Below, in pieces: positions 12,527 to 30,480 of a stretch of DNA of 64,000 bases. Source of the DNA: Thermotoga neapolitana DSM 4359 (GTDB lineage Bacteria > Thermotogota > Thermotogae > Thermotogales > Thermotogaceae); assembly GCF_000018945.1 (NCBI RefSeq), contig NC_011978.1, forward strand, positions 838,729 through 902,728, read 5' to 3'. Made by a program: the position numbers and the translations under genes. The notes beneath the pieces are model-generated. The model made no database searches and was not told the origin of the DNA. It saw only the letters and a program-made list of their open reading frames with translations. Within the stretch, counting starts at the first letter, position 1. Each line of letters begins with the position of its first letter.

Positions 12527-12850
12527 GTGAAGGTGAAGATCGTAACACCCTATGGAACGGTGTTCGACAGAGAAAGCGATTTCGTTTCCTTCCGTACTGT
12601 CGAAGGTGCGATGGGTATTTTGCCGAGAAGAGCTCCTATCATCACACAGCTTTCCGTGTGTGATGTAAAAATCAAATCTGGTGAAGAGGAGTTTCGTCTC
12701 AAAGTTGCAGGTGGTTTTCTCGTGTGTGATGGAAAAGAGGTGACCATAATAACTGAGGAAGCGGGAAGAGAAGAGGACATCTCTCCGGACAGGTTCATGG
12801 AAGCCAGGGAAAGGGTAGAAAGGGTGAGAAAATTCTTCCAGTCTTCGTAA
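12527..12850 (+). CDS. atpC: ATP synthase F1 subunit epsilon, short form
   Basis: Epsilon couples the gamma shaft to the c-ring and in many bacteria inhibits ATP hydrolysis with its C-terminal helices. The beta-sandwich domain is complete ([55 protein letters not shown]). The protein stops at 107 residues, however, where typical members reach about 130-140. Only one short helix ([18 protein letters not shown]) follows the sandwich, so the usual two-helix inhibitory arm is reduced. It starts with GTG at 12527. Its last 19 bases overlap the proposed start of degV in another frame. Confidence 0.93.
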
Positions 12851-13671
12851 TCGACAGTGCCGTAACCGTTGGAGATTGGAAGCTCCCGTTTCCGTTGAAG
12901 ACCGTGGGAATAAAGGTTTACATCGACGATAGAGAGTTCACCGATGGAGTGGATCTTGATTCGGAGACGTTTTACAGCTTTTTTGGGAGAGCAAAAGACT
13001 TCAGAACAGCTGTTCCTTCTCCAGTTGAAATGGAGAAGGTTTTGCGTGATATAATTTCTGAAGGCTACACGAGGATATACTGTGTTCACCTGTCCGCGAA
13101 GCTGAGTGCTTTTTATAGCGTAATGAACGGTGTTGTGGAACGCTTGGAGGAGGAATTTCCAGATGTAGAATTCAAGGTGATAGATACCAGGCAGGTCTCG
13201 ATCGGAGCGGGATACGTGCTGCTGGAACTGATGAGAGCTGTCGAAAGAGGAGAGGAAGACCTGGAAACAGTCGTTGAAAACGTGAACAGGAGGATAAAAA
13301 TAAGATTCTCTGTTCTTGAGTTCAACTACCTCATAAAGAGTGGAAGGGTCAGAGCAACAGTCGGCATACTGGGAAATCTGGCGAAGATATTCCCTATCAT
13401 GAGTCTTGAAAACGGAGAACTGAAGGTCGTTGCAAAAAAACGTGGCTTGAAAAACGTCGTCGAAAAAATCGTGGAGGATCTGAAGACAGAAAAGCCTAGA
13501 ATGCTTGGGTTGGCTTATGCCGGCGAAGAGATGAAGGAGATCGTCCTTGAACTGAAGGCAAGACTTCAGGATGATAAAGTGGAAAGAGTGGACATCGTCA
13601 GATTACCCCCTACCCTTGCCGTTCACTCAGGGCCCAAGATGTTTGGCGCAGGGATTCTGACACTCGAATGA
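12832..13671 (+). CDS. DegV-family fatty-acid-binding protein, probable ATT start
   Basis: DegV proteins (FakB class) bind a fatty acid, in Gram-positive bacteria presenting it to FakA kinase. The recognisable body includes [51 protein letters not shown] and a C-terminal [12 protein letters not shown]. The first ATG/GTG/TTG in frame is TTG at 12895, which would delete the family's first strand. The frame upstream encodes that strand ([11 protein letters not shown]) and contains no usual start codon back to the in-frame stop. ATT at 12832 follows GGGTGA by four or five bases and gives a normal 279 residues. The start is therefore inferred, the gene itself secure. A fakA gene is not in the window. 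Confidence 0.8.
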
Positions 13672-14238: not shown

Positions 14239-15654
14239 ATAAGAGAGTTCCTCCTGAACGTACAACCAGACAGTTTATCTTACGCGATCCTGAACGAAGG
14301 TGATCTGGAAGAAATCTTCCTCGATGAAATAGAGACGATCACGGGAAAGATCTATCTTGGAAAGGTAGAAAGGATCGTACCTGGCCTCGAAGCAGCCTTT
14401 GTGAAGATCGGAAAGGGCAGAAACGCTTTCTTGAAGCTCAACGAGATAAACGAGTCCTACAGAGAGATTGTTCTGAAAGGACAGGAAGTAACAGAGGGAG
14501 CAAAGGTGCTTGTCCAGGTGAAGAAGGACGCTTCTGGAAAAAAGGGGCCACAGGTGACAGCACAGATCGGAATCGCTGACAGATTCGTGGTAGTCTTTCC
14601 CTTCAAGAAAGTAGTGGGAGTCTCCAGAAAGATCGAAAACAGGCTGGAAAGGCGAAGGTTAAGAAGTCTTGCCATCGACTTGAGAAAGAGATACGGCATC
14701 GGAGTTATCATAAGAACGGCCGCTGAAGGAGTTGAAGAGGAAGAGATCGTCAAAAACTTTCAAGAAGCTATGAATAAGTGGAACGAAGTTCTTCAAAAGT
14801 TCAGAAGATCGAGAAAACCAAAACTCCTTTATGAAGAGGATCCCATCGAGCAGATAGTGAAAGAGAAAGTAAATTCAAAGATCGACAGGTTGATTTACAA
14901 CGAAAAATCGATCCTGAGCACTCTGGAAAAGTACGTTCAAACGCTTCCGAAAAGACCAGAACTCGTGTATACAGAAGGCGATCTGTTTGAAAAGTACTTC
15001 ATCTACGACAGACTGAAACAGCTTCTCTCTCGAACGGTGCCGTTGAAGAGTGGTGGAAACATAGTGATAGACAGGACAGAAGCCCTTACGGTGATAGACG
15101 TGAATTCAGAAAGCTACACAGACGCTGAAAATCAGGAAGAACTCGCTTTGAAAACCAACCTGGAGGCTATCGAGGAGATCATCAGACAGTTGATTCTCAG
15201 AAACATCGGTGGTATCGTTGTGGTGGATTTCATCAAACAGCGGGATCCAAAGAACTATGAAAAGATTCTGGAGCGCTTCAAGGAACTCGCAAAGAAGGAT
15301 GGAACGAAAATAGAAGTCTTTGGTTTCACAAACCTGGGTCTTCTGGAAATGACAAGAAAAAGAACAACCAGACCACTGGATGCTTTTCTTTTCACCAGAT
15401 GTCCCGTCTGTGGTGGTACCGGAAAGGTCATCTCGCAGAAGGTCCTTCTAAAGAGGATAAAGGAGGATTTGAAGAAGCTGAGAGAGTTCGACGAAGTCAC
15501 TTTGAAACTTCATCCGAACATGTCCGGCTATTTTAAGAAAGAGGATGTGAAAAGACTGGAGAGAGAATTCAAGGTGAAAATTTCTCTGGATTACACCTGG
15601 AACGACCCAAATTCTTATGAACTCAGTGCAAAGACCAAGAAAGGAGGAAAGTGA
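14239..15654 (+). CDS. rng: Ribonuclease G/E family endoribonuclease, probable ATA start
   Basis: Single-strand-specific endoribonuclease for rRNA processing and mRNA decay. It has the S1-containing N-terminal part ([23 protein letters not shown]), the catalytic aspartates in [12 protein letters not shown] and [13 protein letters not shown], and the Zn-link [10 protein letters not shown] used for dimer or tetramer formation. The first usual start codon is GTG at 14401, inside the S1 region, and would remove 54 conserved residues. The frame is open back to the hpf stop at 14220 and has no ATG, GTG or TTG there. ATA at 14239 lies eight bases after GGAGGTG and gives [18 protein letters not shown], aligning with the family N-terminus. 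The total is then a normal 471 residues. Confidence 0.88.
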
Positions 15655-29961: not shown

Positions 29962-30480
29962 TTAAGAATTTTTGGGCTTCAGAACCATCCACATGTCTCT
30001 TCCTTCCACCTTCGGTGGACTTTCAACAACTGCAAGATCCTCTGTGTCTTTGATCACCCTTTCGAGAATTTCCTTGCCCTTGTCTGTGAACATCATTTCC
30101 CTACCGATAAACATAACAACCACCCGAACCTTGTGGCCTTCTTCGAGAAACCTTCTGATATGCCTTACCTTCGTTTGATAGTCGTGTTCGTCGATCTTCA
30201 ACCGGAACTTCATCTGTTTCAGCTGAACAGCCTTCTTTTTGTTTTCTTTTTGTTTCTTAGTGAGCTGGTACTTGTACTTTCCATAGTCCATAATCCTAGC
30301 AACGGGGGGATCTGCGTTCGGGGCAACGAGTACAAGATCAAGCCCCTTCTCTCTTGCAAGATCCAGCGCCTTCCTGGTGGGCATGATGCCTATCTGTTTT
30401 CCGTTCTCGTCCACTACTCTGACCTTCGGAACCTTTATTTGTTCGTTCCTGGGAAGATCCACGTTTGCACCGATACCGAT
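29962..30480 (-). CDS. infC: Translation initiation factor IF-3, probable ATC start
   Basis: IF3 keeps the 30S subunit free and rejects wrong start codons and tRNAs. The N domain (LPRNEQIKVPKVRVVDENGKQIG), linker helix (MDYGKYKYQLTKKQKENKKK) and C domain (KMKFRLK-like, FLEEGHKVRVVVMFIGREM, EGRDMWMVLKPK) are complete. No ATG or TTG exists at the N-terminus. A longer in-frame extension runs back through the leader into the tRNA and is not credible. AAGGAGGAGGCG directly precedes two ATC codons, at 30480 and 30474; I use the first (172 residues). An AUU or similar start is the classic autoregulation device for infC, so ATC fits. A GTG at residue 8 is the alternative. Confidence 0.9.
   Translation of the reverse strand: MGIGANVDLPRNEQIKVPKVRVVDENGKQIGIMPTRKALDLAREKGLDLVLVAPNADPPVARIMDYGKYKYQLTKKQKENKKKAVQLKQMKFRLKIDEHDYQTKVRHIRRFLEEGHKVRVVVMFIGREMMFTDKGKEILERVIKDTEDLAVVESPPKVEGRDMWMVLKPKNS

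Follow-up and report, generated by a model that had tools for sequence, protein, structure and literature searches.

An AUU codon inside atpC as the proposed start of degV in Thermotoga neapolitana and its genus

The window analysed here is a stretch of 64,000 nt contained in the genome of Thermotoga neapolitana DSM 4359 (genome G000; 1,884,562 bases, single contig); positions are those of the window unless a genome prefix is given. Its forward strand carries the gene order atpA-atpG-atpD-atpC-degV-hpf-rng-tsf-pyrH. The names atpC, degV, hpf, and rng were checked against protein families; the remaining names come only from reading the translations. The proposed start codon of degV and a ribosome-binding stretch both lie in the 3' end of atpC (Table 1). 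The degV frame is −1 relative to atpC, is open throughout the overlap, and extends from 12757 to the stop at 13671 with no ATG, GTG, or TTG until TTG 12895. The original prediction placed the start at an ATT four or five bases past GGGTGA, with an overlap of 19 bases and a protein of the normal family length of about 280. The spacing was measured at 4 bases (12822-12827 versus 12832), the overlap was confirmed with the end of atpC at 12850, and the resulting 279 aa compare well with the 280 positions of the Pfam DegV profile and the 276 of TIGR00762.

Table 1. Coordinates of features at the atpC-degV junction in the window.
Feature	Position	Strand	Basis
atpC, F1 ATP synthase epsilon subunit, 107 aa, stop TAA	12527..12850	+	family profiles, ORF
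GAAAGGGTGAGA, 12 bases, invariant in 7/7 genus genomes; contains GGTGA	12818..12829	+	genus comparison
GGGTGA, Shine-Dalgarno-like, 4 bases 5' of ATT	12822..12827	+	sequence
ATT, proposed initiation codon, invariant 7/7	12832..12834	+	genus comparison
degV-like (FakB-type) gene, 279 aa counted from ATT	12832..13671	+	family profiles
Codons outside atpC, 5' of TTG 12895; protein-level selection	12856..12894	+	pS 0.777, pN 0.047
TTG, earliest usual start in frame; 2/7 genomes; rejected as start	12895..12897	+	genus comparison

The predicted protein matched PF02645 at 168.3 bits (cut-off 27) and TIGR00762 at 171.5 bits (cut-off 99.7). The N-terminal strand with its DS motif and the length near 280 are both present when translation is counted from the ATT and are lost if it starts at 12895; the original claim that this strand and motif are encoded upstream of that TTG was borne out on the window sequence. 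Because the local Pfam match begins at residue 19, the first 18 residues are tied to the family by TIGR00762 (match from residue 8), by the structures of two Thermotoga paralogues (1vpv and 1mgp, both matching from residue 7), and by alignment. When only the N-terminal 47 residues were searched against solved structures, no DegV chain was retrieved. A folded model of the window DegV alone was poor (mean pLDDT 46.5) and was not used. By family, the predicted product is of the DegV/FakB-like lipid-binding type, and not a FakB1 equivalog, since it scored 64.2 bits against NF038249 where 350 are required. A single Dak2-domain match was found in the genome, within an open frame of 537 aa, and this protein could be the kinase partner of DegV.

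A DegV protein was present in all seven genomes of the genus, and in all seven the codon homologous to 12832 was ATT. A conserved upstream ATG or GTG in other strains, which the original prediction had named as telling against it, was looked for in each of them and was absent: no in-frame ATG, GTG, or TTG occurred between the upstream stop and the ATT in any of the seven. With the ATT numbered codon 1, G000 and G006 have their next usual start at codon 22 and G005 at codon 11, a GTG that the others do not share; in G001, G002, G003, and G004 none comes before codon 67, which would cost 66 residues. The sequence features expected of an AUU-initiated gene were found in all seven genomes: a conserved AUU, GGTGA 4 bases 5' of it at a workable Shine-Dalgarno (SD) distance, and no usual start able to give the conserved protein.

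From 15 codons before the ATT to 21 after, the ATT is itself the sole ATH or CTG codon kept in all seven genomes. This bears on whether initiation might occur at another non-usual codon close by, either CTT 12835 or codon 7, an ATH codon at 12850. The CTT is also invariant, and the SD run of five bases scores for it too, but it is two bases away from ATG; codon 7 varies among ATC, ACC, ATT, and ATA; and the only near-cognate kept in all seven is the ATT. We therefore consider a start at either codon highly improbable. In genome G002 the degV frame is broken past about codon 180 while the ATT and the N-terminus are intact, reflecting either decay or a sequence error. That break is the one observation in favour of reading the unusual start as a sequencing or assembly error, or as a mark of a decaying gene; set against it are the identical ATT in seven separate genomes, six intact frames, and a low pN at the N-terminus, and we give this reading practically no credence.

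Substitution patterns argue that the codons just before TTG 12895 are translated. Over degV codons 9-21, pS was 0.777 and pN 0.047 among five distinct genus genomes (G004 and G002, near copies of G000 and G001, were omitted, and one extra codon in G005 was removed so that register holds). With pS so far above pN outside atpC, these codons are evidently translated in the degV frame, and the protein-level selection on them is left unexplained by a start at 12895. A start at that TTG, giving a protein that lacks the first strand, would have the merit of a usual codon, with the Pfam match beginning close by. Against it, in addition to the selection on the codons upstream, the TTG occurs in just two of the seven genomes, four of them have no usual start until codon 67, and the SD run preceding it is 3 bases; translation from 12895 is very unlikely.

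The overlapping end of atpC has also been conserved. Its pS was 0.51-0.66 over codons 1-93 and fell to 0.17 over codons 97-107, a drop due in part to dual coding, which contributes to the constraint on codons 102-107. Codons 98-101, which lie 5' of the ATT, were invariant in all seven genomes, and none of the 94 other four-codon windows (starting at codons 1-94) was. The longest invariant nucleotide run in atpC is the 12-base run of Table 1, which ends two bases short of the ATT; as the second longest, at −104 and with no such role, has 11 bases, a run of 12 does not stand far apart from the rest. GGTGA is complementary to the 3' end of the 16S rRNA identified in G000, and the SD pairing of T. 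maritima is described as strongest where centred 4-6 bases 5' of starts (PMC3636130). The match involves only five bases, and 70 of the 1429 ATT triplets in the window (4.9%) have one as good at a suitable distance, so by itself the SD match is weak evidence.

The two reading frames constrain one another at the start codon itself. Codon 102 of atpC encodes lysine or arginine as AAA, AGA, or CGA, and its constant final A is the A of the ATT; at only 4 of the 17 aligned Lys/Arg codons of atpC is the final A constant in all seven genomes. Since codon 102 always ends in A, ATT has been kept rather than GTT. The Phe codon that follows is TTC in all seven, and its first two bases are the second and third of the start codon, which can therefore only be NTT and never ATG, GTG, or TTG without altering atpC. 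Among NTT codons, ATT is the nearest to ATG, and we infer from the sequence that this is the plain reason for so rare a start. The overlap of ATT-started degV with atpC was 19 bases in five genus genomes and 22 in two. A degV frame that lies −1 to atpC and stays open across the overlap would also suit ribosomes slipping by −1 towards the end of atpC and so producing an AtpC-DegV fusion that needs no separate start. However, an in-frame XXXYYYZ heptamer was absent from the shared stretch in all seven genomes, the one heptamer in G005 (at −69) lies 5' of the stop bounding that genome's degV frame, and 26 relatives carry degV as a separate gene that has a start codon to itself; such a fusion is extremely unlikely. 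On the sequences compared, frameshift fusion, truncation, and sequencing error all appear poorly supported.

Those 26 relatives lie outside the genus. Within the order, degV followed atpC in 33 of 45 genomes: the seven of the genus, six of the same family, and 20 of another family. In G041, of the same family but another genus, hpf comes immediately after a long atpC, and degV is absent from the junction. In a third family, six genomes had an atpC match and no adjoining degV match, and five further genomes had no reported atpC match. A scan of genome contigs returned one distant relative only. Picked by eye from the listed codons, the best start by position in the 26 relatives was ATG in 12, TTG in 11, and CTG in three; degV after atpC is therefore often weakly started, and the start in this genus is weaker still. 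A CTG-type degV start seems to be used in G022, G020, and G019, of the other family, whose congeners have TTG. When eight of the 26 were aligned, the ATT fell on the relatives' start codon or one codon off (MKRAVVIDS versus (ATT)LPVFVIDS). Of the six same-family relatives, degV starts 4 to 193 bases past atpC in five and overlaps it by one base in the other. In this genus the atpC product has 107-110 aa, against 84-86 aa in six genomes from three related genera, and it is the longer tail that overlaps degV. The proposal that ATT 12832 is the initiator is thus upheld by its presence in all seven genomes, the restriction of TTG 12895 to two, the selection upstream of that TTG, and the alignment with the starts of relatives.

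How often such a pattern arises was gauged in 260 gene pairs, covering about 382 kb of G000 and 395 kb of G001. Genes were flagged when at least six aligned codons, free of other genes, lay 5' of the first usual start in both genomes. Eighteen pairs were flagged; by eye, 15 of these were conserved leaders or ended in a usual start, leaving three genes for which a non-usual start seems necessary: degV, rng, and a gene at G000:970481 (CTG). The degV case is accordingly unusual in these genomes yet not alone. For the last of the three (L105 8481-9761; G000:970481-971761), which is presumably a TmcAL/YlbM-type nucleotidyltransferase, the start seems to be CTG in G000, and the counterpart in G001 is also without a usual start there. 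The rng gene (RNase E/G family, TIGR00757; 14221-15654, + strand) lacks any usual start until GTG 14401, and an ATA at 14239, following GGAGGTG, was conserved in all seven genus genomes. The rng of G041 also has the ATA, but with a TTG nearby. The scan missed infC (about 29968-30474, − strand) because in-frame GTG codons exist in G000. Here an ATC eight bases past the SD was found in all seven genomes, as was GGAGG; G001, G002, and G003 have no usual start 5' of the conserved part, and the other four have an in-frame GTG or ATG there. From their sequences, infC and rng seem to start with ATC and ATA and so to share the habit of degV.

Taken together, these comparisons make it very probable that degV begins at ATT 12832, with the ribosome placed by GGTGA inside the last codons of atpC. 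The initiator tRNA would read AUU with a third-base mismatch. As the start site sits inside atpC, degV would probably be initiated mostly by ribosomes that are completing atpC, or on mRNA left open in their wake. Initiation factor IF3 discriminates against AUU, a weak start codon, and for this reason DegV may be made at a low level, rising if IF3 activity falls. By analogy with other AUU starts, the weak codon probably lowers DegV output relative to the ATP synthase subunits and probably makes the start sensitive to IF3. IF3 is described as holding down AUU-class starts in E. coli and Streptomyces (PMC5472188); in vitro, more IF3 gave a smaller full-length share from AUU read by a CAU anticodon (PMC10158994); and in S. 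aureus reporters both AUU and AUA gave lower yields (PMC13009471). Proteomics of T. maritima are covered in PMC3636130, whose main text does not mention AUU, and ribosome profiling data for the same species are used in PMC4787049, which cites a protocol paper for them.

The infC, degV, and rng genes all lie inside the 64-kb window, with degV and rng in an operon-like row with the atp genes and hpf. A set of Thermotoga genes started by AUH codons (infC by AUC, degV by AUU, rng by AUA) under IF3-sensitive translational control is an unlikely but conceivable arrangement. If it existed, a decrease in free IF3 would raise IF3 itself, an RNA-decay enzyme, and a lipid-linked protein all together, and a response of these starts to IF3 would amount to a testable translational regulon in a hyperthermophile.

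Gene finders restricted to ATG, GTG, and TTG would set the start of degV 10 to 66 codons late, and in most of the genomes such a call would remove the first strand. To our knowledge, AUU starts with good support are few outside infC. Literature on Thermotoga with ATT, AUU, or non-canonical starts, DegV, and atpC, searched by titles and abstract openings in a collection that leaves out most subscription journals, gave no account of the degV case, which would therefore add to the known AUU starts of infC, pcnB, cvfC1, and Borrelia pncA. In E. coli, the AUU start of pcnB reportedly limits expression, a finding attributed to Binns and Masters in 2002; pcnB is a different gene, and the degV start differs in lying inside an ATP synthase gene. 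Switches of start codon to AUU were very rare in a large comparison, with one reported among 61,358 ancestral AUG starts and one among 5,080 GUG starts (PMC5622118).

Among the closest parallels are cvfC1 (AUU) and ccpN (AUA) of S. aureus, which, as proposed for degV, have a non-usual start kept across the genus together with a conserved SD (PMC13009471). In that work, the starts were demonstrated with initiation-stalled profiling and with reporters, which gave lower yields than AUG. Both S. aureus genes have an extended SD, as compared with the five-base run of degV, and cvfC1 is first in its own operon and overlaps no gene, whereas degV overlaps atpC (PMC13009471). The infC gene of E. coli (ATT; ATC in Streptomyces) shares with degV an AUU-class start, of the kind that IF3 disfavours, but it is autoregulated by its own product (PMC5472188), while DegV has no known link to initiation. 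In Borrelia burgdorferi pncA (bbe22), an AUU likewise restores an N-terminus cut by annotation; that gene is carried on a plasmid and its start is backed by genetics and a crystal structure (PMC13398362), whereas the degV start is proposed from sequence. Finally, Streptomyces sigR (GTC) is a further genus-conserved rare start within an operon, and there the start is repressed by IF3; its codon differs from that of degV, and its role in setting the sigma/antisigma ratio has been shown experimentally (PMC5472188).
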